Shown: in pieces, positions 32,284-62,800 of the stretch
Position numbering within the stretch: the first letter of the stretch is position 1
How the letters are laid out: every line of letters starts with the position of its first letter
Origin: Sodiomyces alkalinus F11
Lineage: Eukaryota; Ascomycota; Sordariomycetes; Glomerellales; Plectosphaerellaceae
Length of the DNA: 64,000 nt
Direction of reading: 5' to 3'
Assembly: GCF_003711515.1 (NCBI RefSeq)
Contig: NW_021167091.1
Coordinates: 618,313 to 682,312 of the forward strand
Notes under the pieces: generated by a model
Seen by the model: only the letters and a program-made list of their open reading frames with translations
Told to the model about the DNA's origin: nothing
Databases searched by the model: none
Position numbers and translations under genes: made by a program

Positions 32284-32316
<33 letters not shown>

Positions 32317-36424: not shown

Positions 36425-37155
36425 TTAATGCTATTATACTACCTAGTTAGCCCCGCGCTGCTATAACGCCACCCACGAACTATATACTAGAATTATATAT
36501 AGTAAATAGAAGCAGAGAACTAGGAGACGCTACTAGTTAGTATAACGCCGTGATAGTAAGCCTACGGGATCGTAAACAGGAATATAATATATAGAAAACC
36601 TATAATAAGCTTTAGTAGCGTTATAGAAAGGAAAGAGGAAAAACAAAAAGGATTAGATACTTTATTAATTATCTACTATTTTACGGTTATAGGCGAAGCC
36701 TTACCCTATCTACCTACCGCCGGATATAGCAGGCACCTACTTATAAAGGAGGTAGGAGAGCCTACCTTGCCTATTCTCTTTATTAATTAAGTAGAAGAGA
36801 TAATCAGAATAATTCCCGGGAATATAGGGAGACCGAGTTTAGGGTACTACGACCGCCGTATTATAGAAGCGCCGCGGCACCCCTTTAGTCCCTACTCCCT
36901 TACTCGCGATTAGCCTAGGCTAACCTAAACTCTAGCCTATTACTCTTCCGATTAGCTATTAGCCTAGAGAGGTATAATCTATATATATAATAGAGATAAA
37001 TCGGCGCTATATTAGCCCCGTAATGGTATTACTCTATCTAAGGAAGAGTATAGAGGTTTTCCCCGGGTTTCCCCGGATTTTCCACTTTATAGCTACTTAA
37101 AAAGGACCGTATAGCCTAAATAGGCTCTTATAGATTAGATAGGATAGCAGAGTAA
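36425..37155 (+). mobile_element. LINE fragment H, 3' end
   Basis: A 5'-truncated LINE starting at sequence equivalent to about 6,600 of copy B (CTATTATACTACCTAGTTAG) and ending GGATAGCAGAGTAAG. It is non-coding and heavily RIP-mutated. It is the nearest mobile element to the RPB8 promoter. Confidence 0.82.
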
Positions 37156-37160
37156 GACTA

Positions 37161-37194
<34 letters not shown>

Positions 37195-37307
37195 TATTAT
37201 TATTATTAGTATTATTAGTATTATTAGTATTATTAGTATTATTAGTATTATTAGTAATATTAGTATTATTAGTATTATTAGTATTATTAGTATTATTAGT
37301 ATTATTT
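37156..37307. repeat. Microsatellite: (AAT)n, (ATT)n, then (TAGTATTAT)n
   Basis: About ten AAT units pass directly into five ATT units, making an inverted repeat, and then into about twelve nine-base TTATTAGTA units with one interruption near 37,255. It starts as the tail of LINE H. The Ile/Leu-rich open frame across it on the minus strand is only a translation of the repeat. Confidence 0.85.
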
Positions 37308-38165
37308 TAGGGCAAACCTCGCCGCCACCTCCTCTTACCAAGCCGCCGCCTATTATTCCTCTAGTTTCTATTCGGAGAGCTTCCGGGCGTTATCCTTATT
37401 AGAAAATCGACAGATTATAATAGCATAGCCGTATTCCTTTATATAGTTCTTTATAGATACTAAAAGATTATTAAAATATTTGTAGCCTAGGGCAAATAAG
37501 ATAGGCAGTAGAAGCGCTATTATAGCGTTAATAAATAGATTAATACACGACAATTGTAATACTACGAAGTAAAGTTAATAATAGGCCTAGAGCGATAGGA
37601 AAGTAGTAGGTAGTAAACTAAACCCTAGCTTCTAATTAGTTATAAATATAGGTCTATAACCAAAGTATAGTCGGAATAACCGGTTACTATAGTCGGAATA
37701 ACCGGTTACTATAGTCGGAATAACCGGTTACTATAGTCGGAATAACGGCTCTCTTATAATATATCCCTTACTTCCTTTTTACTAGCATACTAATCCTTTA
37801 ATATAGGGCTAACAGTTTTAGCTATATAATCGTAGAGGGCGTAAAGGCCCCTTTACTCGGCTCTAAAATAATCCTCTTTCACCTACTAAATCTTAAATAG
37901 TATATTCTGATTAAAGATATTGTATTTTTCGCTGGTAGTAGGCTGCTATACTAGGTCGGTTTATATACGGCGTGTAGGCCGTTTAGCCTCTTTAAGATTA
38001 GAATTAATAAGGTCGGCGAGAGTATAGGAGTGCGTAATAGTTATTATAGCTTTAATCTAAGGGCCCTAGTCCTTTAGCGCGGTAAGCATTATAAGGCCTA
38101 TAACTAGTAGTACTACTGTAGAAATTATCGTTATACTAATATGAAGTAGTATAATAGGATACACG
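37308..38165 (-). pseudogene. Degenerate segment with a possible transposase remnant
   Basis: On the minus strand, from about 37,640 down to 37,368, a frame reads ...GYKYFNNLLVSIKNYIKEYGYAIIICRFSNKDNARKLSE. The pattern (Asn-Leu-Leu, then Ile-Lys-x2-Ile-Lys-Glu-x-Gly-Tyr-Ala-Ile, then Arg-x-Ser-Asn-Lys) is faintly like the N-terminal region of Mutator-like (MULE) transposases of fungi. Nothing downstream confirms it. The rest, to 38,165, shows no gene and contains a minisatellite. Confidence 0.25.
37669..37746. repeat. Perfect 22-bp minisatellite, 3.5 copies
   Basis: The unit AGTCGGAATAACCGGTTACTAT occurs at 37,669, 37,691 and 37,713, plus a 12-base partial copy at 37,735. Copies are identical. 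It contains the palindrome AACCGGTT and no CpA, so RIP would not alter it. Confidence 0.93.
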
Positions 38166-41100: not shown

Positions 41101-41752
41101 GCCGCGATATTACCGTAACGGATATATAGGGGCGCCTTAAGAAGACTAAACCCTAAACGGTACTAGGACCCGATAGGCTTTTAATAGGGCTCCTAAAAGT
41201 ATATAGACCCCCCTTATACTAAAGACTAAGTATTATCTTTATAGCGTGCCTTAAAGTAGGCTATTACCCGAAAAGGTACCGCTATACTACCGTGGTAAGC
41301 CTTAAAAAAGAAGGTCGGCCGTCGCCTAACTATAAGATAGTAAAGGACTAGCGACCGATATTACTCCTTAGTATAATAGGTACGGTCCTTAAAGGGATCC
41401 TAGCTAACCGGATCGTTACTATAGCGGAGGAATATCGGCTCCTCCTAAAGGGATAAATAGGTAACCGGATAGGGTGAAGTATAAAGACGGTAGTATAAAG
41501 AGTTATAGAGGCCGTAAGAGCGAGCTAGGCCTATAGCGGCACCGCTTCGATACTTTAACTAGATATTAAAGGAGCCTTTAATACTATCCCCTACTCCCGC
41601 CTCCTTAAAGTACTTAAAAGGAAAGGCTTCCCCCGGTAGCTTATTACCCTAAGTAGCAGCTTCCTCTAAGACCGTATAGCCTAGATACTTCTTAATAGCG
41701 AAACGGCCCCCCTATAATACCTCCGCGGGGGTATACCGTAAGGCTCCCCGAT
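38166..41752 (+). mobile_element. Full-length LINE copy I, first piece
   Basis: The 5' end (AACGATTTCGACACGCC, the same as in copy M) is followed by ORF1 at about 38,470-39,790 and the endonuclease and most of the reverse transcriptase of ORF2 up to 41,752. There gypsy copy J is inserted, with duplication of CCGAT. The element resumes at 50,188 and again at 59,746. Joined, the three pieces make a LINE of about 6.6 kb, the same size as copy F. Confidence 0.9.
41748..41752. repeat. Target-site duplication of J, left (CCGAT)
   Basis: CCGAT before the left LTR of J, repeated at 50,183-50,187. Uninterrupted LINE copies have a single CCGAT at this place. Confidence 0.9.
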
Positions 41753-41966
41753 TATTACGAGTTAACCTCGATATAGAGGATCCGGCTATACTCCGGATCT
41801 TCCTGACTACGCGCTTAGTTAACGGACTTATATCGCTAAGTCATCGCTACCTTATAGCTAGCCTAACGCTATAGACTTTTCTCCTTTTCCTTCTTCTTTC
41901 CTTAGTTCTAGATAATTTATTATTACGACCTTACTTAGTACCATGACCTATAACTAGTCGTTTATA
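41753..41966 (+). repeat. J left LTR
   Basis: 214 bp, TATTACGAG...GTCGTTTATA (TG/CA ends changed to TA). It includes an inverted repeat GAGGATCCGG-CTATACT-CCGGATCTTC near its start. Differences from the right LTR are all transitions by eye. Confidence 0.92.
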
Positions 41967-41989
41967 TATCTAGAACTTAGCGATACCTA

Positions 41990-43400
41990 TACGCTACGCT
42001 AACGATAGATTAGGATCCTAACGCTACCGCCTAATAACCTATTAGAATTAAATAGGTTATAGAGTGGATAAAGTAACGGTTCGAAGAAAATAACCGAGCC
42101 CTAAACGTAAGGCTAGGCCCTCTCTATAAATAATATACCGATATTAACTTAAGGCTCGCTCCGATATAAGAATATTACTCGGAAATACGCTAGTTTATAG
42201 ACCGATAACGCGCGAGAGAAGAAGCCGATAAGCGATAACGCTAGTTAGTCGAATAGCTTATAGCCCGGCTCCTAGGATCGCCTACCCCGTAAAACCTAAC
42301 GCCGCTTAACCTAAATATTCCGGCTCCCTTATAGACCCCGATAATCCTTATACTAGTAGAGTCTACCCTATTACTGGTTTTATTGCCTACGCTATAGCCG
42401 ATGATAGTAATAATCGCCCGGACCTTAATAGTGACACCCCGTAAAACTATTAATAGCCTGGTAAAGTTCTTGGGGAAATAAGTATACTATAGCGCGTAGG
42501 CCTATACGATACGGTAAAAGCTTATAATCGATAACGACTTATTCTAGAATAATATATAAGCTTAGTACACGATTTATAAATACCTAAGGCCTAAAGTATA
42601 ATAGGTTATATCGGCCTTTTATAAAAACGATAGGCCGGGTAAGCTTATAAACCTTAACGACTTTATAGCGTATCTTAATTATACTTACCTTAACCCTATA
42701 GAATAATTACGGGCCGCCTAAGCCTTATACACGATTTATTAATAAACTAATAAGTCGTTTACCGCCTTCCTGCCCGATTTTAAAAGATAGATTACCTTTA
42801 CGGGTAGTACTAAATAGGAAGCCACTATATAGATCTTATTCCTTAAAGGAGCGATTACTTCGCGACTTAGGGATAAACTTATCTCCGCCCGAATCTCTAC
42901 TAACTATTATACTATATAGGTTAACGGCGTATAATAGATCGCTAGGAAACTTACAGGCTATTAGTTCGAATAAAACTATAATAAATAAGCTTAAGATTAT
43001 ATAACCGCGAAAAAGAATACCGATAGCGCTATAAAGATAGGCGGAGTAAACCGTGTTAGCGATAGGAAGGTAAAGTAAAAGACTAGGATATACTATAACT
43101 ATAATGAGAAGGGGTATATCGCGCGGAAATATAAAAAGCTAAAGGAAAACTAAAACACGGTCCGGAAGGTTAAGGAGACTTATACGAAAGATCACGATAA
43201 GAGCGGGGATAAATCGACTAATAAGAATAACTCGGAAAAAGAGTAGCTCTAACACGAAAATAGGCGTTAAAGCCGATAGCTATAATACGGCGGGAGTAAG
43301 AGGCGTTTAAAGTATATACTAATAGTAACCCGGTACTTATAATAGCTAGAGTAAATAAATAGAGTATCCTCGCCCTAATTAGTATTAGTTATAATTACTA
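41990..43400 (+). pseudogene. J gag, RIP-destroyed
   Basis: Degenerate Gag frame ending in a knuckle at 43,091-43,132, which reads Y-YN-Y-NEKG-Y-IARK-Y, spacing x2, x4, x4, followed by a Lys-rich stretch. The four zinc ligands are all Tyr through RIP. The equivalent in copy K is at 53,856-53,897. The start codon is not recoverable. Confidence 0.75.
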
Positions 43401-45265
43401 TACTGCTATAAGTGAATAGTTTACCTAAAGACTCTAATTACTATTAGTTGATAAGACGAATCGATTACTACATAGCTTCTTGGAAGCTACTAAGACTATT
43501 AGTAGCGCGGGGATCGCCGTTTATAAGCTTAAGATTGGTAGTTACTTATAGAGGATATTCGTATATATAGTGCCCGGGCTTAACTAAGATATATTCCTCG
43601 GGAAGCCCTGGATAGAATAAAATAATATAATATACTACGCTAAAGATAAACGGCTTTACTACGGAGTAGCCGAATTAAATATATAACTTTATTACGAAAA
43701 AGAACCTATTAGAGTATAAGCTATCCGCGACGCCTATTTAGTTATAGGATTTATATTCGCGGGTATTATTCGACGACTATAATAAAAGGGTAAGGAAGTA
43801 TTAATCTAAGGAGTAAGCCTAAAAGATATCGAAAAAGCGTTATATAAGAAATAACTTATAGACCCGAAGGACTTTATACCCGAAGAGTTACTACGAGAAT
43901 TCGACGACTTATTCGCGCCCGATAAGGCTAATTAATTACCGTTATACTAATTAAGAGTTAACTATAAAGTAAACCTTATACCCGGAAGCGATAATAAGGA
44001 ATTATCGCTTCTTTAGGGGCTACTTTATAATATATTAAGAGAAGAACTCTTAGTATTACGGAAAATACTTACTAACCTAATAGATAAAGGATTTATCCGT
44101 GCTAGTAGTTTAGAAGCCGTGGCTCCTATCCTTTTTATAAGAAAGCTAGACGGAGGGACTTTAATTTTATTACGACTATTAAGCATTAAATATAATTACT
44201 AAGCGAGACTATTATCTATTTCCCTTAATCGCTAAAATACTATAAAACCTAAGCTAAGTAAAATAATTTATAAAGCTTAATATAATCGCCGCCTTTTATA
44301 AGATTAGGATAGCCCTAGAATATAAATATAAGATTATATTCCGAACTCGGTTTAGGCTTTTCGAATAGCTTATCTACCTATTCGGCCTAAGTAAAACTCC
44401 CGCGACTTTCTAGCGATACATTAATAAGATATTATAGCGTTTCCTAAACGACTTTATTACCGCTTATATTAATAATATTCTAGTCTACTTTAGTAGGAGT
44501 CGGGCCGATTATAAGGCGAAGGTAAAATAAATACTCCGCGTATTCGCGGATACCGGCCTAAAGCTAGATCTATTAAAATACGAGTTTAGCGTAAAGACCG
44601 TAAAGTACCTAGGATTTTTAATTACCGCAGGGAAAAGCGTGTTTTACGATTTAGAGAAGTTATAAGCTATTTACGAGTAGGAAGCGCCTATAACGGTTAA
44701 GGGCGTACGAAGCTTCCTAAGGTTTATAAATTATTACCGAATCTTTATTAAGGATTTTTCGGGGATCTCGGCCCCGTTAATAGTATTAACTAAAAAAGAC
44801 TATACCTTTTAATAAGGTCCTAAGGAAGAAGCGGCCTTTTGTAAGCTAAAGGCGAGGTTCTAAGAAGGACCGATACTATAATAGTAGGACCTAGTAAATA
44901 AGATATTTATCGAGATAGATTACTCGGGGTTTACCTTTAGGGGTAGCCTAATATAAGAAGACGCGGATAGAAATCGCTACGTAATCGTATACTACTCTTA
45001 TAAACTTAATAAAGCGGAATATAACTACCTAATCTATAATAAGAAAATACTAGCGATTATAAGTTATTTAATAATATAGCGGGCTAAGCTTATTAGTTAT
45101 AAGTAGTTTATAGTCCTCTCCGATTATAAGGCCTTTAAATACTTTATAATAAAGTAAACGCTTATTAAACGATAAAGCCGATAGGCCGGCGAGCTTATAT
45201 AGTTCGATTTCGTGCTTAAGTATTAGAAGGGAAAGGATAATATAATAGCGGACGCCCTCTCGCGT
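43400..45265 (+). pseudogene. J pol, first part (PR-RT-RNase H)
   Basis: After a degenerate protease region (to about 43,620) the frame has IPEELLREFDDLF near 43,880, the usual lead-in to gypsy reverse transcriptase. The catalytic box reads YINNILVYF near 44,465, with both Asp changed to Asn. RNase H follows at about 44,780-45,265 (FIEIDYSG, then IIADALSR at its end). Some frame changes occur near 44,200. The insertion at 45,274 separates this from the integrase. Confidence 0.82.
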
Positions 45266-45273
45266 TAATAGTA
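45265..45273. repeat. Probable target-site duplication of the LINE fragment in J, left
   Basis: TTAATAGTA, matching TTCATAGTA at 46,613-46,621 with one mismatch. Confidence 0.55.
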
Positions 45274-46612
45274 TTTTATTATTATTTATTACGCTATTCT
45301 CGCTTAGCTAAGCTAGGCTAGCCACCTAGGCAATAGTCCTTCTCTAATTCTCGAGGGGAAACCGTTAATAGATAAAAACCCCTGCGCCCTTATTATATAA
45401 GTAGTTCTATTATGCGTGGCCGCTACGGTATCGCTCCGCGGCCCCGTTTTTATCGCTATTCGAAAACCGGATCTTACCTCCGGGCTAGTGGCTAACGGGG
45501 GTCGGCTAATTAGTTTAGTAGGTGCCGTGTCGGGTCGCACGCGCCCTTAGTGCGTTATCGCCACGGTTAATCGCCGCTATCCTTTCCTTTATTCCGTTAT
45601 TCCGGATCCGGCGAGGTTCTCCCCTCGCCGCGGCACCCTTTATACCCTCCCGCCCTTTTATAGGGGGGGGGGGGGGGGGGGGGCCCCCCCCCCCCCCCCT
45701 ATTACTCCTTCCTTTATTTATTATTTATTCCTAAACCTCCTTTATATACCTGCTATTTATAGCGGCCCTTATAGAGTTATATACCTCCCTTACTCGCGCT
45801 ATATAGGCTCTCCGAGGCAGGCACTATAGTATAGGCCGGGCGTGGCTGCCGTTCCCTAGAAGGTATAATAACTCGTAGGGCTAATCTACCACTCCCTTTT
45901 TTCTATAAACCTCCCTCTTTTCTTCTCTTTTTTCCTCCTTTCCTTTTTTCCCCCTTTAAGCTATCGTTTTTTAAGGTAAGCTTTTACGTGGTCGGTACGG
46001 TATAAGTACGGTCCTAGAACTCCTATTCGGGATCCCCTAGTACCGTTCGGCTATATAGTAAGGGATTTAACGGGGTCCCGGGTTATACTATCCCCGCGCC
46101 GCCCCCGCTCCGCCCCTGTAGCGCCCGCCTTAGTCTAACTCCCCTACCCCTCCAGATACCTAGTAATAAGACCTCTATCGCTAAAAGGGGAGCCGGTGCC
46201 GGCGCTTATAAGGGTAAAGGGCCGGCTACCTCCTAGCCTTCCACTATAAGTTCCCCGCTCCGTTATCGTCGCGCCTGCTCTACGCCCCCGCTTTATATTC
46301 TAACCCGGTATAGGCCGCTCTTACCCCTACCGTCTATTCGTCGCCTTACACTTCGTGCGTTATATCTCTAGCACGAGATTATTAGGCTACTCCCTGCCAG
46401 AACCCCCCTAGTATATAGTCCTATCGCGTTCCCGCTACTCCCCCGCTCCGTATCGTATCTACTAACCCGACTTAGGAGCCGGCGCCCGCTACGTTATATA
46501 CGTTAACGGTAACCGCAGTAGTAGCCACTACGCCCCGGTTTATCCCCGCTACGCCCCCGTTACGCCCTTACTCCGCTAATCCTCCTATTAGGTCCCCCCC
46601 CCTCTGCGCATG
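45274..46612 (-). mobile_element. Fragment of a second LINE family inside J
   Basis: Copy K lacks this 1.34 kb, so it is an insertion in J. It starts with TTTTATTATTATTTATT then ACGCTATTCTCGCTTAGC, laid out like the reverse complement of the LINE 3' end but with a different sequence. So it is the 3' part of another Tad1-like family on the minus strand, or a shorter non-autonomous element using the same tail. It is C-rich on the plus strand, with no frame that I recognise, and includes the G21C16 tract. Confidence 0.65.
45663..45699. repeat. G21C16 homopolymer palindrome
   Basis: Twenty-one G followed directly by sixteen C. It is a perfect inverted repeat without a spacer, and neither GpG nor CpC is a RIP target. 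Length in the assembly may be unreliable. Confidence 0.9.
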
Positions 46613-46621
46613 TTCATAGTA

Positions 46622-48250
46622 AGATAAGCCCTAAGATATAATAGACGAATAGGAGTAATCTTATTATATTTAATTAATTCCCGATACCGCGATTCCACCT
46701 AGTATTCGCTATATTAATAGCGGTTAATCGATCTTTAAGGCGGACTAAAAGCTATAGCGATTATAGGATAAGACGCTTATAACCGATAAATAATATTAAA
46801 AAGCCCTATCTACGGTTACCGAAAAAGAATAATAGTTCCTACTATTATTAGAATTAAAGCTATAAATAGCCGAGTACTTAGTCTCTACGACTAGGTTACT
46901 ACTATTCCGTGGCCGAATTTAAATACCCGGGTCTATTAAAAAGTCAACGTTATAAGGGAGGATCGTCTAGTTAATTCACGATTTAGTAATTAAAGGGTAC
47001 TCCGGATATAAAAACACTATCGCCTTAGTAGCGCGTCGCTTCTTTTAGCTAAGGATAAATAAAGATATCCGACGATTTATCCGGAACTAGAATATCTACG
47101 GAAAAGGGTATATATAGAGAAATACGAAATAAGGCCTTTTACGCCCCTTCCCGGTACTAAAACGAATACGGAGCGACCTATTAATAGATTTTATAACGGA
47201 CCTACTACTAGCCGGCGAGCAAAAGGCGCGCTACCTTTAGGTTATTATAGACCGTCTAACTAAGGCGGTAATATTAGAAGCGATAAAGATAATAAAAGCC
47301 GAAGCTTACGCGGAATAGTTCTTATACTATTACTTCTGGTTTTACGGAATACCTAGGTCGATTATTAGTGACCGAGGCTTAAACTAGATAAATAGGTTCT
47401 AAAAGTGCTTTTACGAACTCGCACAGATATCGCGTAAGCTTAGTATAGTATATTACCCCTAGACCGATAAAGTAATAAAGCATATAAACTAAGAAGTATA
47501 AGCTTATTTACGAGCCTTTATCTATTATACTTAGGATAACTAGGATCGCCTACTACCCGTAGTATAACTAGCCCTAAATAACCGTAAAAGCTCCGTGATA
47601 GGGTTTAATCCCTTCTTCTTAGAATATAGCTACTACGTTAATCCGATCTAGATAACCGAGGAGCCCCTTTTAGAACCTAGAGTATTAGCGGCCTATAACC
47701 TATTACGCCGCTTATAGGAAATAACCGAGTTTGCCTTGGCCACGATTATATTAATATAGCTTAAAAATAAGGAGTTTACTAACTAATATTATATACCGGC
47801 TAAGCGTTTTCAGGTTAACGATTTAGTTTAGCTATTATTAGCTAACTATTCGACCCCGCGCCTATTATAAAAGCTTAACTAGCTCTATTATAAATACCGA
47901 GTTATAAAGGTAATTAGCCTGTACGTAGTTAAGCTCGCCGTGCTATTATAGATTTACCCTTAATTCCACGTAGACTTATTATGTCGCGCGGGCGATAACC
48001 CCTTTCCGGGATAGGTAGTAGATAACCCTTAACTACCGTCTATTTAAGAAGTAACCGATAACAAAGAATAGGAAATCGAGGAAATCCTTTACGCGAGGAT
48101 AAAAAGGCGAGGTAGGGGATTAAGACGTAAAGTACTCGTATAATAGATAGGATACTATAAGCCTATATAGGAACCTCTAAAACTATTAGCGTAAACGCGG
48201 GTACTTAATAAGTTTAAAGGGAAATTCGGCTTAGTAATAATAAATAATAG
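46622..48250 (+). pseudogene. J pol, second part (integrase and chromodomain)
   Basis: The zinc-binding region of the integrase lies around 46,960-47,120 (LIHDLVIKGYSGYKNT). Its core follows with DFITDLLL near 47,190, SDRG near 47,367 and a degenerate Glu region near 47,480. A chromodomain sits at about 48,063-48,236 (EIEEILYARIKRRGRG ... IGYYKP), with Trp and Gln positions as stops. This is the chromovirus layout. The frame continues from RNase H once the LINE fragment is removed. Confidence 0.8.
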
Positions 48251-49790
48251 CCTATTAAATACTTTCGCGCTATTACGATATAGGAACCGATATATAAGTA
48301 ATTATATCGCGATGATTAAAAACGAGTAAAAGTCGGATTTAGTTTAGGCCGGATAGGCCCCGCGCCTTAGCCACGCTTAATATAAGCCTAGATTAATATC
48401 CTCGGCCTTAAAATCGCTATCCTTAGAATTATCGACTTCCGTAAAAGTCTTACCCTTATCGTCCCGTTATAGGTCGGAGTCTATCTCCTTAACCTTATTA
48501 TTATTTTCGTTATCGCCGTTATCGGGGATTATAACCGCGCTAGCGACGGGTATACTTATAAGCGTAGAAGCCCGCTTACGCTCCGCGTATTATTAGAGTT
48601 CGGAGATTATAATATTAGCGTGACCGAGTATAAGTATCTCCCTAAATAGCCGAGTAAAGTCCCTTAGCTTTATAAGACTAAGGCGTCTAAAGTCTTTATC
48701 TAATAACGTTAACCCCGATAAGGGAGTAAGAGTAATAGGATAGGTATTCTTTTCCGTTATAATATTAGGAGGGACGAAGTCCGAAACTATTACTTTACCT
48801 ATAACCTCGTAAAAAGGAGATAAGGCTAGCTATTCCCTTTTAGTAATAACCTCCTCTAAAGGCGATACGTTTAGTCCCGACGCTATCTCTTCTATAACCT
48901 CTAAGGGAGGAGAAGGGGCTAACACGATTATTATACTAGGAGCCTCCACGGGATATATAGCTATAAGTAATATTGCTATTATTATTTCCTTAGCTATAAG
49001 GGTATCCTAAAACGCCGCGTAGGCATTAAGATACGGTTCCTACTCCTAAAAGAAAAGTTAGCGATACTATCGCGACCTCTTAAGGGGGAGGAAGTCTTAT
49101 AGGGGTATTCTTATTATTATCGCTAATAAGAGTAGCCGTCTTAAATAACCTCTATATATAGCCTTTAAGGTGTATCAGGAGAGGAGTATACCGGTATATC
49201 TTCGTAGAGTATACGTAGTATTTCTTCCCCCGATTAGTCTAGGTATAATAAAGGCGCTTATACTTTTTATCGGCGATATCGCGCGTATAAGGGAGGCACG
49301 GCTTAGTATAAACGCTACTAGGAGGGTGCTTAGGAGGCTAACTACCCGCTAATTTCTTCTTCTTAGGCGGCGGCGAGGGCGATAATATAAACTATTATAC
49401 GGTTAGTATCGCCTTAAGACGTAAAAGCGTTATACCTATATTATCGTCGGCGGCACGCTTACTACTATTATTACCCCTATTATCGCCGGGGGCTAGCGTT
49501 ATCTATAAAAACGATATAAGTTAGCGAAGGGTTCCTAATAAAAAGATTACGAGTAAGAGATAGCTTACCTTAAATAGGGAACTCTTAAACTAACCGAGTA
49601 TCACTATTATTATTTAAGGATAGGCGATATTAGAGAAATTATCGTTATGAAGAACGAGTATATATATAACCGCTATTACTATTATTATTATTATTAAAGG
49701 TAGGGAGGGGAATAAAAGAAAAGAGGGCCTATAAGGAAAACAGGGCCGATACATCTACAGATAGTATCTACGCGAGGGTAGCCTATATTA
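48250..49790 (-). pseudogene. J antisense frame with basic nuclear-signal-like cluster
   Basis: On the minus strand from about 49,790 to 48,250, the sequence reads as an extended protein interrupted almost only by TAG/TAA at Gln/Trp-type positions. Readable blocks in order are: an Asn/Ser-rich start, SSSPPPKKKK-like basic cluster (near 49,365), YTRDIADKKYKRLYYT, YVYSTKIYRYTPLLIHLKGY, a Pro/Val/Glu-rich middle, LTLLDKDFRRLSLIKL-type block, and EDINLGLYQAWLRRGAYP-like end with the stops at Gln. A one-base frame change after IRLPPP (near 49,090) is shared with copy K. I do not recognise the family. Confidence 0.55.
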
Positions 49791-49946
49791 CTATTTCGGG
49801 TATATAAATAAAGGTTAGTAGGCTACCTAAGATTTCTTTAATATTAAGGTAAGGGCGAGGTAAGATAAAGAGACGCGATTATTCCTTGATCACCGCGACG
49901 TAAGGAGGAGCCGAACTACGACGGTAATACGCGGTTATATAACCCC

Positions 49947-49968
49947 AGGAGGGAGAGGAGGGGAATAG
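49947..49968 (+). other. J polypurine tract
   Basis: AGGAGGGAGAGGAGGGGAATAG immediately before the right LTR; K has the same tract before 59,527. Confidence 0.75.
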
Positions 49969-50182
49969 TATTACGGGTTAACCCTGATATAGAGGATCCG
50001 GCTATACTCCGGATCTTCCTGACTACGCGCTTAGTTAATAGACCTATATCGCTAAGTTATCGCTACCTTATAGCTAGCCTAGCGCTATAGACTTTTCTCC
50101 TTTTCCTTCTTCCTTCCTTAGTTCTAGATAATCTATTATTACAACCTTACTTAGTGCCACGACCTATAACCAGTCGTTTATA
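49969..50182 (+). repeat. J right LTR
   Basis: 214 bp, TATTACGGG...GTCGTTTATA, with the same internal GGATCCGG hairpin, followed by CCGAT at 50,183-50,187. Confidence 0.92.
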
Positions 50183-51547
50183 CCGATCTCCCTTATCCTT
50201 TTTATCCTCTATATCTCCACCCTTTACGAAGAGCTTAGAAGGGTCCCTAGAATAATAATAGCAGGTTTTACCGATAATATAAATATTATCGCCTTTAGCA
50301 GGATAGAGGTATAAACACAGCACTATCTTGCCGCCGCGTAATAAGCCTGCTTAGATTAGGAGATAGTAAGTAGTCTATAATTCGAACTAACTAAGTATAT
50401 CTATATCCCCTTTACGAAGTCACGATAACCCTCCTTTACCCTACTCCCCCTTAGCGCTACTTTAATACCGGTAGCGGAAGCGATAAGGCTTTTAGGCGTT
50501 TAGCTTAATAGGAAACTCGACTTCCGGCGATACGCTAAAGAGGTAAAGAGCCGATTAGCTATATAAATATACGCCCTCTTAAGGCTTAGCGCGGTAGTAT
50601 AGGGGTATAGCTTCGCGGACGTAAGAAGACTATATATCGTAGTAGTAAGACTAGTAACGGCCTATTACGCCTCGGCAGTTTATAAGATAAGGGCTAGCCC
50701 CTAGTAAGGCCCTATAACGGCACTTATAGCGATATAGAACCGGTGCCTCTAATTAGTTACCGGAGCCTATAAGGCTACGCCGGTTAGGGTCCTCGAAAAA
50801 AAGACCTTTATCCCCCCCCTTAACCTATACCTCTTAAGCCTAAACGCCTAAAAGATCCTCCGGATGTAAGAAGAAGGGACTAAAGATAAGATATTAGCCG
50901 GAGTATACGCCGTGGCGAGAGCCCTAATAACACCGAACCGGTATTATAAGACCTACGCCGCCCTCGCGTGGATAGCGTAGCTTACCGCCCTAATAACCTA
51001 AGCCGGAACCTCGCCCCCGCGGAAGGCCCTTATAAGGGAATAGGGTTAAACTTAGGCAGAAGTATAGCGGTCCTATACTTACGCCGTAACAGCGCCGGAC
51101 CGGCCCTTAATATAATACTCCGTTAAAAAGTATAAGGAACTCTTTAAGCTACTAAGCTCTACGCTTACCTAAATCCGCACCGAAAAACTAGACCTATAAG
51201 CCTTCCTCGCTAAAGTAAGGGTGCCGGGCTTCCTATTACCGCGGTGCCCCTATAAGGATAGAGGGGCGGAGATAGCGGAGTATATAGTACTTTAGTACTA
51301 AGAGGTAACTAAGGAGCACTATAAGGACCTCTTTAGCGCTATTAGGAGACCGCTTATGACTAAAGGGGACTTATATAACGCCCTAGAATATAATACCGAG
51401 GCAGGGGTAATTATACAGTGGTTCTTATAAAGGAAGAGGCTTAAAGACTTTCGCCTCGCCCTTAAAGTTATAAAAGCCTATAAAGATACCGGGGATAATA
51501 GAGCGGGACCGGAGTAGGGGTAGGGTAGCACGATAGCTAACTAATTA

Positions 51548-51960
51548 TTAAGATAAAGGCCCTATAAGCCGGGACCCTAGTAGTATTAATATAGTATTAT
51601 TACGGTACCGGCTATTATTTATCGTCTTTACCTCCCTCAGAGGCGCTAATACCACTTTCGATATACTTAAGACCCTACTAAGTCTAGTTAGGTAACTAAT
51701 ACCGCTAAGGAGCCGTAATAGGACTAAAGGGGAGCTATTTATAAAGTAATCTAAGATTAGATCCATCTTACCCTCTAAGCGTCTTATCTAATAAGATAAC
51801 TCTTATACCTTTACTAACGTGGTACCGCCACGACTATAATTAGAAGGTAATACCCGGTTTAGGGCCCGGCTAAAAGACTAAGACGCCGTCCTTAGGCGCT
51901 CCTTAGCCTATATTGTATTAATACGGGACTACCACGGCACTAAAGGGAGATACTTATAGT
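51548..51960 (-). pseudogene. Antisense frame in the 3' UTR of LINE I
   Basis: The minus strand is open for 72 codons from an ATG at 51,766 (MDLILDYFINSSPLVLLRLLSGIS...), and the same frame extends upstream through a LEGK motif and Gln-type stops. It matches copies B and F up to about LLSGIS. After that a small insertion shifts the reading, so the C-terminus differs from the ...SEGGNNDKS end in F. Function unknown. Confidence 0.45.
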
Positions 51961-52512
51961 AGCGATACTAGCGCTATTAGCGGCTTTTACCACTATATAC
52001 GCTTAGTAAATATCTATAAGGCGTTATTACTACTTCTTAGTAGCGGGGGGGACATATTAAACTATTAGCTATATTTACCTTAATATATATAAGGCATTAC
52101 TATAGTACTAAGGCGACTTATATTCTTATATAGACGGCGATTAGGAGTATATTAGTAATAGGCCGCGCCTATTCTAATAGTATTAGTATAAGCCTCTACG
52201 TTATCTGGATATATACCTAGGCGCTTACTATAACGAATATAACTACCCTAGGTTAGCACTACGATACTACCCCGATACTACTAGGGCCTATATACGGTAT
52301 AATACGAACTACGCCGTGTTTATAGCGGCCATTATTATTATTAGTATTATTATTATTAGGGGATAGTATCTATAACTATTAGCACGCTACTACTAAAGCA
52401 CCGCTACGCTATAAAAGAACTTATATTATACTACCACTATAGATTACTTATTTATATATATAAATCGATACTATACTACCTAGTTAACCCTATAGTACTA
52501 CGCTACCACGAC

Positions 52513-52517: not shown

Positions 52518-52731
52518 TATTACGGGTTAACCCCGATATAGAGGATCCGGCTATACTCCGGATCTTCCTGACTACGCGCTTAGTTAACGAACCTATATCG
52601 CTAAGTTATCGCTACCTTATAGCCAGCCTAGCGCTATAGACTTTTCTCCTTTTCCTTCTTCCTTCCTTAGTTCTAGATAATTTATTATTACGACCTTACC
52701 TAGTGCTACGACCTATGACTAGTCGTTTATA
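52518..52731 (+). repeat. K left LTR
   Basis: 214 bp, TATTACGGG...GTCGTTTATA, no indels relative to the other three LTRs of the family. Contains the GGATCCGG/CCGGATC hairpin. Confidence 0.92.
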
Positions 52732-52749
52732 TATCTAGAACTTAGCGAT

Positions 52750-54110
52750 ACCCACGCGCTACGCTAGCGATAGATTAGAATCCTAACGCTACCGCCTAGT
52801 AACCTGTTAGAATCGAATAGATTATAGAGTGGATAAATTAACGGTTCGAAGAAAACGACCGAGCCCTAAACGTAAGGCTAGGCCCTCTCTATAAATAATA
52901 TACCGATATTAACTCGAGGCTCGCTCTGATATAAGAATACTACTCGGAAATACGCTAGTTTATAGACTAATAACGCGCGAGAGAAGAAGCCGACGAGCGA
53001 TAACGCTAGTTAGTCGAATAGCTTATAGCCTGGCTCCTAGGATCGCCTGCCCCGTAGAACCTAACGCTGCTTAACCTAAATATCCTAGCTCCCTTATAGA
53101 CCCCGATAATCCTTATACTAGTAGAGTCTATCCTATTACCGGTTTTATTGCCTACGCTATAGCTAATAATAATAATAGTCGCCCCGACCTCGACGGCGAT
53201 ACCCCGTAAGACCGTCGATAGCCCGGCAAAGTTCTTAGGTAAGCGAGTATACTATAGCGCGTAGGCCTACGTGATATAGTAGAAGCTTATAATTGATAGC
53301 GACTTATTTTAGAATAATATACGAGCTTAGTATATAATCTATAATTACTTAGGGCCTAAAGTATAATAGGTCGTATCGGCTTTCTATAAAAGAGACGGGC
53401 CGGGTAAGCTTATAGATCCTAACGACTTTATAGCGTATCTTAATCGCACTTACCTTAACCCCACGGAATAATCACGGGCTGCCTAAGCCTTACGCACAAT
53501 TCGTTAATAAACCGATAAGTCGTTTACCGCCTTTCTGCCCCGTTTTAAAAGATAGATCGCCCTTACGGGTAATACCGAATAGGAAACTACCGTATAGATC
53601 TTATTCCTTAAAGGAGCGATTACTTCGCGACTTAGGGATAAACTTATCTCCGCCCGAATCCCTACTAACCACTATACTATATAGGTTAACGGCGTGTAAG
53701 AGATCGCTAGGAAACTCGAAGGCTACTAATTCGAATAGAACTACGATAAATAAGCTTAAGACTATATAACCGCGAAGAAGGATACCGACGGCGACACGAA
53801 AATAGGCGGAGTAAACCATGTTAGCGATAGGAAGGCGAAGTAAAAGACTCGGATATACTATAACTATAATAAAAAGGGGTATATTACTCGGAACTATAAG
53901 AAGCTAAAGGAAAACTAAGATATAGTCCGAAAGGTTAAGAAGACTCGTACGAAAGATCGCGATAAGAGCGGGGACGAGTCGACTAGCGAGGACGACTCGG
54001 AAAAAGAGTAGCTTTAACGCGAAAACAGCCGTTAAAGCCGATAGCCGCGATACGGCGGGAGTAAGAGGCGTTTAAAGTATATACTAGTAGTAACCCGGCG
54101 CTTATAGTAG
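52750..54110 (+). pseudogene. K gag, RIP-destroyed
   Basis: Same layout as J gag. The knuckle at 53,856-53,897 reads Y-YN-Y-NKKG-Y-ITRN-Y. It is followed by a Lys/Asp/Ser-rich acidic-basic stretch (DKSGDESTSEDDSEKE near 53,960-54,010). No start can be fixed. Confidence 0.75.
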
Positions 54111-57100
54111 CTAAAATAAATAAACGGCGTATCCTCGCCCTTATTAATATTAGTTATAACTATTATACCGCTATAAGTAAATAGTTTACCTAAAGACTCT
54201 AATTACCGTTAATTAATAAGACGAATCGACTACTAAATAGTTTCTCGGAAGCTATTAGGACTATTAATAGCGCGGGGATCGCTATTTATAAGCTCGAGAT
54301 TAGCGGTTACCCGTAAAGGATATTCGTTTATATAGTGCCCGGGCTTAACTAAGACGTATTCCTCGGGAAGCCCTGGATAGAATAAAATAATATAACGTAC
54401 TACGCTAAAGATAAACGGCTTTACTACGGAGTAGCCGGATTAAATATACGACTTTATCACGAAAAGCAACCTACCAGAGTATAAGCTATCCGCGACGCCT
54501 ATTTAGTTACGGGATCTATATTCGCGGGTATAATTCGACGACTATAACGGAAGGGTAAGGAAGTCTTAATCCAGGGAGTAAGCCTAAAGCATATCGAAAA
54601 AGCGTTATATAAGAAATAACTAGTAGACCCGAAGGACTTTATACCCGAAGAGTTACTACGAGAATTCGGCGACCTATTCACGCCTGATAAGGCTAATTAA
54701 TTACCGTTATACTAATTAGGAGTCGATTACGAGGTAAACCTTATACCCGGAAGCGACGGTAAGGAACTATCGCTTCCTTAAGGGCCGCTCTATAATATAT
54801 TAAGAGAAGAACTCTTAGTATGACGGACAATACTTACCGACCTAATAGATAAAGGATTTATCCGTGCTAGTAGTTTAGAAGCCGCGGCTCCTATCCTCTT
54901 TATAAGAAAGCTAGGCGGAGGACTTTAATTTTATTATAATTATCGAGCGTTAAACGCGATTACTACATAAGATTATTACTTATTTCCCCTAATCGCCGAG
55001 ACGCTATAGAACCTAAGCTAAGTAAAGTGGTTTACGAAGCTTAATATAATCGCCGCCTTCTATAAGATTAGGATAGCCTTAGGACACGAATATAAGACCG
55101 CGTTCCGGACTCGGTTTAGGCTTTTCGAATAGCTTATCTACCTATTCGGCCTAAGTAAGGCTCCCGTGACTTTCTAGTAATATATTAATAAGACACTATA
55201 GCGCTTCCTAGACGACTTTATTACCGCTTATATCGACGATATCCTAGTCTACTCTAATAGAAGTCGGGCCGATTATAAGGTAAAGGTAAAGTAGGTACTC
55301 GCGTACTCGCGGACGCCGGCTTAAACCTAAACCCGTTAAAGTGCGAGTTTAGCGTGAAGACCGTGAAGTACCTAGCATTTATAATTACCGCGGAGAAAAG
55401 CATATTTTACGACCTAGAGAAGTTATAAGCTATTCGCGAGTAGGAAGCGCCTATAACGGTTAAGTGCGTGCAAAGCTTCCTAGGATTTATAAATTATTAC
55501 CGAATCTTTATTAAGGATATTTCGGGGATCTTAGCCCCGTTAATAGCACTAACTAAGAAAGACTATACCTTTCGATAAAGTCCCGAGGAAGAAGCGGCCT
55601 TTCGCGAATTAAAGGCGAGGTTCTAAGAAGGACTAATACTATAATAGTAGGACCTAGTAAATAAGATATTTATTAAGACGGACTACTCGGGGTTTACCCT
55701 CGGGGGTAGCTTAACGTAAGAAAACGCGGACGGAAATCGCTATATAGTCGTATACTACTCTCGTAAACTTAATAAAGCGGAATATAACTACTTAATCCAC
55801 GATAAGGAAATACTAGCGATTATAAGTTATTTAATAATATAGCGGGCTAAGCTTATTAGTTATAGGTAGTTTATAGTCCTCTCCGACTATAAGGCCCTTA
55901 AATACTTTATAATAAAGCGAACGCTTACTAAGCGATAAAGCCGATAGGCCGGTAAGCTTATATAGTTCGACTTTATACTTAAGTATTAGAAGGGAAAGGA
56001 TATTATAATAGCGGACGCCCTTTTATATTAAGAGTAAGATATACCCTAAAGTATAACGGACGAATAGGAATAATCTTATTATATTTAATTAATTCCCGAT
56101 ACCGCGATTCTACCTAGTATTCGCTTTATTAATACCGGTTAATTAATCTTCGAGGCGGACTAAAAGCTATAGCGATTATAGGATAAGACACTTACGACTA
56201 ATAAATAATATCGAGGAGCCTTATCTACGGTCGCTAAAAAAGAATAATAGTTCCTACTATTATTAGAATTAAAGCTATAAATAGCCGAGTACTTAGTCTC
56301 TACGACTAGGTTATTATTATTCCGCGACCGAATTTAGGTGCCCGGGTCTATAAAAGGGTCGATATTATAAGGGAGGATTATCTAGTTAATTCACGATCTA
56401 GTAATTAGAGGATACCCCGGACACGAAAACACTATCGCCTTAGTAGCGCGTCGCTTCTTCTAGCCGAGGATAAATAAGGATATCCGACGATTTATCCAGA
56501 ACTATAATATCTACGGAAGGGGGTATATATAGAGAAATACGAAATAAGGCCTTTTACGTCCCCTCCCGGTACTAGAACGAATACTAAGCAACCTATCGAT
56601 GGATTTTATAACGGACCTACTACTAGCCGCCGAGAAAAAGGCGCGCTACCTCTAGGTTATTATAGACCGTCTAACTAAGGCGGTAATATTAGAAGCGATA
56701 AAGATAATAAAAGCCGAAGCTTACGCGGAATAGTTCCTATACTATTATTTCCGGTTCCACGGAATACCTAGGTTAATTATTAGCGACTAAGTCTTAAACT
56801 AGATAAGTAGGTTCTAAAAGCACTTTTACGAGCTTACACGGATATCGCGTAAGCTTAGTATAGTATACTACCCCTAGACTAATAGAGTAATAGAGCGTAT
56901 AAACTAAGAAGTGTAAGCTTATTTATAAGCCTTTATCTATTACGCTTAGGACGACTAGGATCGCCTACTACCCGTAGTATAACTAGCCCTAAATAACCGT
57001 AAGAGCTCAGCGATAGGGTTTAGTCCCTTCTTCTTAGAGTATAGCTACCACGTCGATCCGATCTAGATAACCGAAAAGCCCCTATTAGAACCTAAAGTAT

Positions 57101-57655
57101 TAACGGCCTATAACCTACTACGCCGCTTATAGGAAACGACCGAGTTCGCCTAGGCCGTGATTATATTGACGTAGCTTAGGAATAAGGAGTCTGCTAACTA
57201 ATATTATATACCGGCTAAGCGTTTTAAGGTTAACGACTTAGTCTAGCTATTATTAGCTAACTATTCGACTCTGCGACTATCGTGAAAGCTTAACTAGCTC
57301 TATCGTAAATACCGAGTTATAAAGGTAATTAGCCTATACATAGTCGAGCTTACCGTGCTATTATAGATCTACCCTTAATTCCACGTAGACTTATTACGTC
57401 GCGCGGGCGATAACCCCCTTCCGGGATAGGTAGTAGACGACCCTTAACCACCGCTTATTCGAGAAGTAATTAATAGTAAAGAATAAGAGGTCGAGGAAAT
57501 CCTTTACGCAAGGACGAAAAGGCGAGGCAGGGGATTAAGACGTAAAGTACTAGTACGATAGGTAGAATACTATAAGCCTATATAAGAACCTCTAGAACTA
57601 TTAGCGTAAACACGGGTACTCGATGAGTTCGAAGGGAAATTCGGCTTAGTAATAA
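54110..57655 (+). pseudogene. K pol (PR-RT-RNase H-IN-chromodomain)
   Basis: The reverse-transcriptase box YIDDILVYS is intact at 55,229-55,255. IPEELLREFGDLF lies near 54,645; RNase H is at about 55,550-56,020; integrase at about 56,090-57,400; chromodomain at about 57,485-57,650 (EEILYARTKRRGRG). Unlike J, pol is not interrupted by an insertion, so it gives the cleaner view of the family. Stops are nearly all TAG/TAA at Gln and Trp positions, plus a small frame change near 55,300. Confidence 0.85.
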
Positions 57656-59340
57656 CGAATAATAGCCTATTAAACACCTATGCGCTATCACAATATAGGA
57701 ACCGATATATAAGCGATCGTATCGCGATAATTAGAAAGGAGTAAGAGTCGGATTTAGTTTAGGCCGGATAGGCCCCGCGCCTTAGCCACGCTTAATATAA
57801 GCCTAGATCGATATCCTTAGCCTTAAAATCGCTATCCTCGGGATTATCGACTTCCGTAAAAGTCTTACCCTTATCGCCCCGCTATAGGTCGGAGTCTATC
57901 TTCTTAACCTTATCGTTATCTTCGTTATCGCCGTTATCGGGGATTATAACCGCGTTAGCGATAGTTATACCTATAAGCGTAAAAGCCCGCCTATACTCCG
58001 CGTATTATTAGAATTTAGAGATTATAACGTTAGCGTGACCGAGTATAAGTATCTCCCTAAATAGCCGAGTATACTCCCTTACCTCTATAAGACTAAGGCG
58101 TCTAAAGTCTTTATCCGATAACGTTAACCCCGATAAGGGAGTAGGAGTAATAGGATAGGCGTTCTTTTCCGCTACGATATTAAGAGGGACCGGGCCCGAA
58201 ACTATTACCTTACCTATAACCTTATAAGGAGGAGATAAGGCTAGCTATTCCGCCCTAATAGCGACCTCCTCTAAAGGCGATACGTCTAGTCCTAATGCTA
58301 TCTCTTCTACGACCTCTAAGGGAGGAGAAAAGACTATTATAACTACCTCGTTAGCGACCTCTATTACCGGAGGAAGTAAGGCTGGTTTAGCTACCTTATT
58401 AACGACCTTAGGAAGAGGCAGCGAGGCTAATTACGGTGCTACTGCTTCTTAGACCTCCTAAGGAGGAGAAGGGGCTAGCGCGATTACCGTGCCGGGAGCC
58501 TCCGCGGGATATATAGCTATAGGTGATATCGCCGTTATCGCTTCCTTAGCTATAAGGGTATCCTGGAATGCCGCGTAGGCGTTAAGATACGGTTCTTACT
58601 CCTAGAAGAAGAGTTAGCGATACTATCACGACCTTTTAGGGGGGAGGAAGTCTTATAGGAGCGTTCTTATTATCGTCGCTAATAAAGGTAGCCGTCTCGA
58701 ATAAGCTCTACGCGTGGCCTTTAATATACGCTAGGAGAGGAGTATACCGGTATATCTTTATAGAGTATATATAGTATTTCTTCTCCCGATTAGTCTAGCT
58801 ACGATAGAGGCGCTTATATTTCCTATTAGCGATATCGCGCGTGTAAAGGAGGTATAGCTCGGCACGAACGCTACCGGGAGGTTATTTAGGAGGCCGATTA
58901 CCCGCCGATTTCTTCTTTTTAGGCGGCGGCGAGGACGATAACGCGAACTATTATACGGTTAGTATCGCCTTAAGATATAAGAGCGTTATACCTAGATCGT
59001 GGTCGGCGGCACGCTTACTACTATTATTACCCTTAATATCGCCGGGGGCTAACGCCGTTTATAAAAACGATATAAGTTAGTAAAGGGTTCTTAATAAAAA
59101 GATCGCGAGCGAGAGACGGCTTACCTTAGACGGGGAACTCTTAAATTAGCCGAGTATTACTATTATTATCTAAGGACGGGCGATATTAAAGGAATCGTCG
59201 CTATAAGGAAGAAGAGTATATACGTAACCGCTATTACTATTATTATTATTACTAAAGGTGGGGAGGGGAACGGAGGAAAAGAGGGCTTACGAGGAAAACG
59301 GGGCAGATATATCTACGGATAGTATCTACGCGAGGGTGGC
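57655..59340 (-). pseudogene. K antisense frame, about 560 codons, unidentified
   Basis: Opposite to pol, between the chromodomain and the right LTR. Order from 59,340 downward: Asn/Ser-rich lead (TFSNNNNSNSGYVYTLLPYSDD), SLAIFLLRTLY, ALAPGDIKGNNSSKRAADHD, the basic cluster SSSPPPKKKKSAG (near 58,920), YTRDIANRKYKRLYR, IYSIKIYRYTPLLAYIKGHA, then after a one-base frame change YLNAYAAF, LIAKEAITAIS, a Pro/Val/Glu-rich low-complexity middle, LTLSDKDFRRLSLIEV and DIDLGLY. Stops sit at Gln/Trp-type codons. The PPPKKKK cluster resembles a nuclear localisation signal. The 141-bp segment absent from J is 47 codons. I recognise no known domain. Confidence 0.58.
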
Positions 59341-59526
59341 CTATATTACTATTTCGGGTATATAAATAAAGGTTAGCAGGCTACCTAAGATTTCTTTAAT
59401 ATCGAGGTAAGGACGAGGTAAGATAAAGAGACGCGACTATTCCTTTATCACCGCGACGTGAAGAGGAGCCGAACCACGACAGTAACGCGTGGGTATATAA
59501 CCTCCGGAGGGAGAGGAGGGGGATAG

Positions 59527-59740
59527 TGTTACGGGTTAACCCCGATATAGAGGATCCGGCTATACTCCGGATCTTCCTAACTACGCGCTTAGTCAACGGA
59601 CCTATATCGCTAAGTTATCGTTACCTTATAGCTAGCCTAGCGCTGCAGACTTTTCTCCTTTTTCTTCTTCCTTTCTTAGTTCTAGATAATCTATTATTAC
59701 GACCTTACTTAGTGCCACGACCTATAACTAGTCGTTTATA
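59527..59740 (+). repeat. K right LTR
   Basis: 214 bp, still starting TGTTACGGG, so its TG end has escaped RIP. Ends GTCGTTTATA, then GCTAC. Short open frames across it on both strands are not genes. Confidence 0.92.
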
Positions 59741-60470: not shown

Positions 60471-61275
60471 ATAAACGAAAAGGTTAATTAACTAAATTAA
60501 ACGCTTTAAACGATAGTACAATAAAAACTAAAAAAATATTAGATAAAATCAAAGCAGGCAGACGTTACTAGTAGAATAGCTCTAGCTATAATAGACTTAA
60601 AGCTTTAAAATAGTATATCTGCCTTAGAGCTATTAGATCGATTAGATAGTGATATGCCCGGTCCAGGCAAATCCCTGGCTAGCTAGTACTATCGGACCTA
60701 GGGCTTCTAGGGTTCAAAATATAAGACGTAATTTCCTTATAGAGCTTAGGAATAGCGAATCGGCTAACTAACTTATACTAGGTTCGTTTAATGCTAAAGT
60801 AATAACGCTTATTATCAACGGCCTAAATAAACTCCTAACGCAGGGAGAAAGGGATATAAAGGCGATATTTCCCGCTCTATTCTAGGTACTAAAAAAGCCT
60901 ATTATCTAACTCGAAGGGGATCTTAACCGGCGAATTATAGTTCTATAGCTAGGTAAGGATAAGTCCCTATTTAGTATTATTAGTATAACTATCGCTAATT
61001 CTTTATTATAGGTCAGTGTTTATCTTAAGCTCGGAAAAATAGTAAATAGCCTAGTCGCGCTAAATCCGATCTAGTTCTTTATCGTTTTCCGTTTCCGGAG
61101 GGTTTATTATAGGTAGCTATAATAAGGCGTTGGCTATAATACTCGATTTCCTGGGGATATACCGATAATCTAACTAGAACTAGCTAGGGAACTCCGAGGA
61201 GAGGATAAACTTTATAGTTAGCCTAGTCTTATCCGTGCTAGATAGTATAAAAGACTTTATAATACTAATAGTAAA
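60471..61275 (+). pseudogene. Unidentified degenerate coding segment
   Basis: From about 60,650 a plus-strand frame is readable as protein, with TAG/TAA only at Gln-type sites. Readable parts are ASRVQNIRRNFLIELRNSESAN, LILGSFNAKVITLIINGLNKLL, TQGERDIKAIFPALF, LEGDLNRRIIVL, KDKSLFSIISITIANSLL, VYLKLGKIVNSLVALNPI and TRFPGDIPII. It ends where LINE M begins at about 61,276. It is Leu, Ile and Asn rich and might be a Gag or another mobile-element protein, or a host pseudogene. I do not recognise it. The first 180 bp show nothing. Confidence 0.4.
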
Positions 61276-62800
61276 AAACGATTTCGACACGCCTATTAAC
61301 CACGGGCGCGTAATAGGAGTAAAATCGATAAAACCACTAAGACAGAGATTATAATTACTACCTCGCTCCCGGGATACTATTATACCGGCACTATAATACC
61401 GGCGCTATAGTATAGCCGGAAGAGATATAGGATAGCGTTATTCCGACCTCGACTATACAGAATTTATAACAGACCTACTTTTCGTAATATAACCCTCCCC
61501 CTAAGGTAGGATATAGCGCGAAACCGATATAAGACCGAAAAGGGGCTACCACGCCCCCCGGAACCGAGAGAAACTCCGAAAAGGAATAAGCGGTATAAAA
61601 AAGACTTAGGCTAATATTATAGCCTAAGCTCTCATAGCGGTACCGCTATAGGACCCCGCCCCCCTTAAAATAATCCTCGCTAGGTATTACCGGGAATTAA
61701 TTATCCGCTAAGGAACCCTCCCCGAAGACTAGCCCCTTAGAGTCAGGACCCTAAAGGAAATTATTTAAGCTATAAATACCACGATTACCCGATATAACGC
61801 CGTAATAGCACGGAGGCTACTTAGCGGAGATATCTACCTTACCTTTACCGAAAGGGTATAATAATAGGCTATCTATAAAGACTAATAGGTTAAGAAAGCC
61901 TTTAGTAAAGTAGCTACCCTAGCCGTATATACTTATCCTATACTCGCGAAGGCTATCCTTTAGGAGGTCACTAATACCCTTTCCGAGAAAGACTTACTAG
62001 TACCCTTATAAGATATAAACCCCGAGGTAAAAATTCTCTACGTATAATAGTAAGTACTCCGTTACGGTACCGGTAGGGTAACGCTTCTCTTTATCGAATT
62101 AGCTTCGCCGGAAGGGGTATTAAGCCTTATTCGGAATACCCTCCTCTTTGAGGGGGGTAGCTATATCTACGAACCGTATAATCCTAACCTTAGCCCTCTA
62201 AGGTATTATAAATCTCTATACTTTAGCTATAAGGCTAACGGCTACCCCGCGGTAAAAAGGGTATACCGCTACTACACTAAGCTAGAATTGGCGTACTTAT
62301 AAGGCCTAGGATACTATAACGCTATAACGCCCGGGCGCCCCCGTTACTATACCGCTTATACCGGAGATTATAATACCTTTAATAATTTATACCGATTATT
62401 AATGAAAAAGGCTAAAAAGACCCGCGAAGCGTATAAGTACTAAGCCAGAGACTTTAAGATTACCTATTAGACCGAAACGGTATACTCGCAGTAGCCGTAG
62501 ATTTTCCCCCTAATTATTATTGCCTAGGACTAGGACCGACCCCTTTATAGGGGTAGAGGATAGCCCCGAAAAGGGCTAGAGGATAGGAGGGCTCCCCGGC
62601 ACCGGGCCTAATAAGCGCCTATATAGTCCCCCGCGGGATTAGTAAAGTACCGTAGTAGGAACCCTAGAGCTAGACCCCGGTTATACCGGGCACGTTATCT
62701 TAACCCTCCCCCCCCCCTACTAATTAATAAGAATCTATATCCTTTTATAGAATATTCAGAGGAGTTAGGCGTAGCGGGAGCTCCTATTTTAGTACCGCGC
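61276..62800 (+). mobile_element. LINE fragment M, 5' part with internal deletion
   Basis: Has the LINE 5' end AACGATTTCGACACGCC, most of ORF1 and the first bases of ORF2. Between about 61,568 and 61,571 (CCGAGAG to AACTCCG) some 165 bp present in other copies are missing. At 62,800 it is interrupted by the LTR of element N; its continuation would lie beyond the window. Confidence 0.82.

Follow-up and report, generated by a model that had tools for sequence, protein, structure and literature searches.

In fungi, the Boty-like gypsy retrotransposons of Botrytis cinerea are described in the consulted parts of two papers as carrying an additional antisense gene, brtn (PMC7264820, PMC8365987; credited to Zhao et al. 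2011), and because Boty carries it, this kind of antisense gene is already known in the kingdom. Antisense open reading frames (aORFs) are likewise described, in the sections seen of PMC7264820 and PMC11963269, from plant long terminal repeat (LTR) elements, namely maize Grande (gene23), rice RIRE2, Silene Retand and PvRetro13, and for the Grande antisense protein nuclear localisation is reported and regulatory roles are suggested. Among retroviruses, HBZ of human T-cell leukaemia virus type 1 (HTLV-1) and APH-2, APH-3 and APH-4 of HTLV-2, HTLV-3 and HTLV-4 are made from spliced antisense transcripts; HBZ reduces expression from the 5′ LTR, and both HBZ and APH-2 are nuclear, according to the portion consulted of PMC10186651. 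Here we analyse a 64,000-nt stretch of the genome of Sodiomyces alkalinus F11 (contig NW_021167091.1; hereafter the window, with coordinates counted from its first letter as position 1), in which a Ty3/gypsy retrotransposon, element K, contains a protein-like antisense region between pol and the 3′ LTR. Judging from its sequence, this region is probably the remnant of an element-encoded antisense accessory gene, inactivated by repeat-induced point mutation (RIP). The antisense gene appears to be a further member of the kind known from Botrytis and plants. Its first intron has conserved antisense splice signals, an untranslated segment lies between two coding segments, and both of these bear protein-type constraint. 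The element and the gene model are as follows.

52518..59740, plus strand: element K, Ty3/gypsy retrotransposon with LTRs, reverse transcriptase, RNase H and integrase zinc-binding region
59049..59124, minus strand: intron 1, with donor GTAAGC at 59124, branch CTAAC at 59080 and acceptor TAG ending at 59049
58684..59048, minus strand: exon 2, with PPPKKKK at 58929-58909, then the most conserved block; start codon possibly at 58965
58602..58683, minus strand: putative intron 2, with branch CTAAC at 58617 and acceptor TAG ending at 58602; donor presumed
57795..58601, minus strand: exon 3, with a possible stop codon at 57794-57792

The source genome measures 43.4 Mb in 22 contigs. A DNA search of it, in which 40 of 141 candidates were scored and the counts are thus a lower bound, yielded at least 41 matches, namely K itself, a fragment of 110 bases and 39 further places sharing 83-90% identity; with two protein pieces as queries there were 142 and 144. 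The alignment set comprised 80 sequences, that is, 78 regions of about 3 kb together with K and a second element of the window, J; L052 had been dropped, as it gave no match. Most counts below refer to 72 of the 80, omitting J, two divergent relatives (L050 and L051) and five copies that were truncated or aligned poorly (L046, L060, L067, L068 and L084). They fall into a main group of 66 copies and a subfamily, g2, of six (L053-L058). The two divergent relatives share 41% and 42% amino-acid identity with the exon 2 piece. Relative to the antisense frame, the LTR lies on the opposite strand in 77 of the 80 aligned copies and the end of pol in 76, and in view of this constant arrangement the frame can be regarded as a regular component of the element.

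Read in antisense, intron 1 has the form AAG/GTAAGC...CTAAC...TAG (the slash marks the exon-intron boundary). Over all 80 copies, GT is present in 74 and AG in 76, and the length stays at 72-77 nt in 79, varying by single nucleotides. Donor, branch (GCTAAT) and acceptor are also kept in L050 and L051, in which the interior of the intron is unalignable. At the 59124 donor, 54 of 72 copies show the strict donor-branch-acceptor pattern; the other antisense sites at which it occurs in at least eight copies are 59018 (37), 57118 (24), 59290 (11) and 57353 (8), and the sense sites reaching the same threshold are 58726 (12) and 59009 (8).

The second intron is less directly visible. The unspliced distance between exons 2 and 3 takes all three phases, in 25, 32 and 21 of 78 copies, which would be unexpected of a translated segment in active lineages, and for this reason we infer an intron between them. 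Each base of its branch CTAAC at 58617 is present in at least 64 of the 72 copies, and the TAG ending at 58602 in at least 62. Its donor may have been a GT at 58683 that was lost by RIP (TpG to TpA), position 58683 being G in a single copy out of 72; with that GT restored, the exon frames would join in phase 0. At the end of exon 3, TAA at 57794 is found in 70 of 72 copies as well as in L050 and L051. ATG is almost missing on both strands, leaving the start codon without direct evidence. Codon 58965 reads ATA in 71 of 72 copies, as fits a RIP-altered ATG, and a 1-nt deletion at 58971 occurs in five of the six g2 copies and in L027; downstream of it, four of the six g2 copies show no overall change in length. 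Since this deletion lies just upstream of the ATA, translation may start at 58965.

Evidence for selection had to be independent of RIP. The sequence-only reading had proposed a comparison of nonsynonymous and synonymous substitution rates (dN/dS) after computational reversal of RIP; its place was taken by a count of transversions per codon position, as RIP generates transitions only, and this count did reveal constraint. Exon 3 was taken to 57774 for the purpose. Fixed transversions that distinguish g2 from the main group in exons 2 and 3 number 6, 4 and 18 at codon positions 1, 2 and 3 (p = 0.002 for uniformity), or 10 in 794 sites at the first two positions versus 18 in 397 at the third (p = 0.0008), and those common to at least three copies number 16, 13 and 27 (p = 0.054). 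Singleton transversions, which are mostly post-inactivation and serve as an internal control, are evenly spread (116, 102 and 111; p = 0.63). In the introns the density of shared transversions is 2.8 times that in the exons (18/138 versus 56/1191, p = 0.0003), and fixed ones are also denser there (9/138 versus 28/1191, p = 0.01), while singletons are not (40/138 versus 329/1191, p = 0.76). The end of pol, taken as a coding control, gave 4, 0 and 11 by codon position. Within exon 2, eight shared transversions fall into 58943-58904, which holds the lysine run, and two into 58903-58684, where conservation within the exon is highest. Shared indels measure 3 and 15 nt in exon 3 and 1-2 nt in the introns, and in exon 2 two deletions of 1 nt, at 58971 and 58920, are shared. 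The codon-position test against L050 and L051 was weak, the MAFFT alignment being poor there. An earlier test based on synonymous transversions in 78 copies gave, for the exon 2 piece, 7.6 of 16 in antisense (2.8 expected) and 6.6 in the mirror sense frame (3.0 expected), and no signal in either direction for the 3′ piece. Protein-type constraint acted on both coding segments before inactivation.

These results alter the description from which the analysis started, that of one antisense frame of up to about 560 codons kept in K and J. A stop-poor, protein-like stretch between pol and the 3′ LTR is present in both elements, and its retention by selection is supported by the transversion bias; the single long frame, however, does not stand, and two introns are needed. 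The best antisense frame of K has 29 stops in 561 codons, more than the 25 of the sense frame in pol phase. Over 57655-59340 the three antisense frames of K contain 47, 29 and 67 stops and the three sense frames 25, 49 and 39, and the longest open antisense run is 78 codons; J has 35 stops in the 511 codons of its best antisense frame and 26 in its best sense frame. The single 560-codon frame was rejected, as the antisense protein-like sequence changes frame: PPPKKKK at 58929-58909 is in a frame different from that of the 3′ half, and there is a frame shift near 58642, where a base of a C run is absent in 18 of 41 copies. The frame given in the sequence-only reading thus does change phase, which can be accommodated by two introns that this reading had not seen. 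A spliced antisense gene accounts for the region better than a single frame. The PPPKKKK cluster is real and was kept as a lysine run, with at least three of the four lysine codons in 68 of 72 copies, and it is also present in L050 and L051.

The stops themselves, thought at first to be nearly all RIP products, are indeed nearly all TAA or TAG in the spliced model, with TGA in only five cells among 389 codons in 72 copies. Some majority-stop columns, however, have no precursor codon: in ten of them no copy shows a Gln, Trp or CGA codon, so that a RIP origin of most stops fits but is unproven. The pol frame has six such columns in half the number of codons. Stop type was set aside as a sole criterion, because the coding frame of pol, at its end, contains fixed stop columns too. 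In exons 2 and 3 together, the 72 copies average 14.2 stops each in the antisense frame and 28.2-52.8 in four other frames.

Several observations weigh against a spliced antisense gene. Intron 2 lacks a visible donor, and L050 and L051 do not show GT where the presumed one aligns. Five of 72 copies (L015, L059, L061, L065 and L069) have lost one nucleotide at 58920, within the lysine run of exon 2, which the gene model does not explain. The exon 1 or leader segment upstream of 59125 is unconstrained, with 17 shared transversions in 105 sites. Homologue and domain searches were all without support: three protein-database searches with exon pieces, in a database whose fungal content was unchecked, gave no homologue, and the exon pieces had no Pfam domain or PDB match, apart from a DUF5509 match at E 0.057 in one of 22 exon 2 members, which we take as chance. 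Further points concern direction. The mirror sense frame contains just as few stops (14.3 per copy), of the 28 fixed transversions 12.9 are synonymous in the mirror sense frame and 9.8 in antisense, and in the non-coding flank 59526-59130 it is a sense frame that has the top translated score for L050 and L051.

The points on direction, together with the continuation of the pol phase through exon 3, are those that would be expected if the constrained frame belonged to the sense strand, as a C-terminal extension of pol or a third sense open reading frame, with the antisense gene as its mirror image. The codon-position tests cannot separate the two, because both frames share third positions. We nevertheless consider a sense frame unlikely. 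The best sense splice pattern reaches only 12 of 72 copies, although most copies have exons 2 and 3 in different phases, and an intron in the sense of the genomic RNA is lost on retrotransposition, while an antisense intron persists. In the pol frame, moreover, 57742-57793 contains four stop columns, each with stops in at least 66 of 72 copies. In translated BLAST against eight relatives, antisense outscores the mirror frame in 8/8 for exon 2 and in 7/8 for exon 3, and is the top of all six frames in 8/8 and 5/8, respectively; given the sense win in the non-coding flank, such scores are no proof of coding. The mean AlphaFold confidence (predicted local distance difference test, pLDDT) for exon 2 is 55.4 in antisense versus 39.9 in the mirror frame, both low. 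The purine share at codon position 1 is higher in antisense than in the mirror frame (0.546 versus 0.461 in exon 2, 0.640 versus 0.603 in exon 3), and in three pieces of K pol it is likewise higher in the coding direction. TGA counts (5 in antisense, 39 in mirror sense) were set aside as weak, since the pol control is ambiguous, with 18 in the coding frame and 14-45 in the others. On the strength of splice signals, intron survival and these weaker signs, the direction is likely antisense, a conclusion that is supported but unproven.

It is improbable that there was no gene at all, and that few stops and conservation merely reflect base composition, RIP and shared ancestry. The region is RIP-saturated, and certain fixed stops have no surviving precursor codon, but the distribution of transversions by codon position and by region, against singletons that are flat, and the retention of splice signals in the divergent L050 and L051 speak against such an origin. 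Slightly less probable still is a spliced antisense non-coding RNA that would regulate the element through double-stranded RNA or interference, making the protein irrelevant: antisense transposon RNAs are reported from a fungus in the part seen of PMC10648671, and silencing by antisense transcripts via double-stranded RNA is raised in the consulted text of a review (PMC7264820), but neither the codon-position bias of fixed transversions nor exon 3 indels in multiples of three would be expected of such an RNA. Passive carriage of a captured piece of a host gene is very improbable, for although introns and antisense orientation are compatible with capture of genomic sequence, the genome matches spanning most of either query are all stop-bearing, with no intact host copy among the matches listed, constraint persisted inside the element family, and the gene is present in the divergent L050 and L051.

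Element K is a Ty3/gypsy LTR retrotransposon by the order of its domains on the plus strand, from reverse transcriptase through RNase H to the integrase zinc-binding region. Its LTRs, of about 212 bp, align from 52520-52731 to 59529-59740 with 93.9% identity; read by eye, their first bases are at 52518 and 59527. K is a dead, heavily mutated retrotransposon, probably inactivated by RIP, and RIP-like change prevails among its copies: across 1980 alignment columns from 41 copies, variation is confined to C/T or A/G in 830 and of other kinds in 59. This preponderance and the genome size are suggestive of a filamentous fungus that has RIP. Two further features belong to this setting.

57424..57660, plus strand: end of pol, chromodomain-like by eye, from reading of the sequence
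48243..49779, minus strand: equivalent antisense region of element J, deletion-bearing, from alignment and frame counts

For the chromodomain, which would mark K as a chromovirus, a Pfam search of K and five other copies at E 0.01, with stops masked as X, gave no match. In many stop columns, including those of 57484-57793 on the plus strand, some copies have CGA and others TAA, the intermediates CAA and TGA being scarce, and it therefore appears that CpG, besides CpA, was altered on both strands. Between the main group and g2, the LTR (59530-59700) differs by one transversion in 171 sites, as compared with 11 in 195 at third codon positions of pol (57050-57650); the lower divergence of the LTR could be due to LTR exchange among subfamilies or to constraint on the LTR. 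Element J (41753-50182) is about 1.2 kb longer than K between its LTR copies despite its shorter antisense region, and an insertion elsewhere in the element is likely. Other retrotransposon-like families in both orientations occupy much of the window (repeat families D1-D20, inverted pairs I1-I25), spanning 597-6981, 16923-23106, 24142-30769, 38167-41752, 49969-52415 and 61272-62575. Short tandem triplet arrays of the GAA/AAT and TAT/TAG types lie at 32263-32369 and 37141-37311, beside repeated AGGATAGCGGAGTAAGA-like sequence.

If the antisense gene was expressed as its structure suggests, transcription would have started in or near the 3′ LTR and been directed towards pol, and the transcript would have been spliced and its translation would have given a basic protein some 360-390 residues in length. 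Antisense introns survive retrotransposition because the genomic RNA, opposite in strand, cannot splice them out. The protein may have entered the nucleus and regulated the element; this is the least certain step, proposed by analogy with the antisense proteins of plant gypsy elements and with HTLV-1 HBZ. Only tentatively, then, do we suggest a fungal gypsy lineage with a two-intron antisense regulatory gene of HBZ-like architecture, its introns unspliceable from genomic RNA and its protein belonging to a family unrelated to those described, on which selection would have acted across families about 40% apart in amino-acid identity. The many RIP-dead copies constitute a fossil record, in which transversions per codon position reveal past selection without any need to reverse RIP, and the antisense splice sites make the gene directly testable through spliced antisense RNA.

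That an antisense gene lies outside the standard gypsy layout, as had been claimed, is correct, yet the arrangement has already been published, in plant elements as in Boty of Botrytis. Little is understood of the antisense accessory genes that LTR retrotransposons carry, and Boty is the sole fungal case that we found in the literature searched, as far as the parts consulted go; at the level of titles and the beginnings of abstracts, we recognised, in the open-licence literature, no description of a fungal gypsy element whose antisense gene is spliced. By its described layout, Boty resembles K: both are gypsy elements, and the passages seen on brtn place an extra antisense gene where the probable one of K lies, after pol and before the 3′ LTR. 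The plant aORFs differ in their hosts, and a splice structure of the antisense gene is absent from the descriptions compared, which cover parts of PMC7264820 and PMC11963269. Retand proteins, in the same partial accounts, mostly have a TRP28 domain, while in the K family TRP28 (Pfam PF04195) had no match in two K pieces, 22 exon 2 members and 16 longer members. HBZ and the APH proteins, as presented in the text consulted, belong to animal retroviruses; their likeness to the K gene is one of layout, with a spliced antisense transcript arising on the 3′ LTR side and encoding a regulatory protein, of which the promoter, transcript and function in K would be the presumed counterparts.
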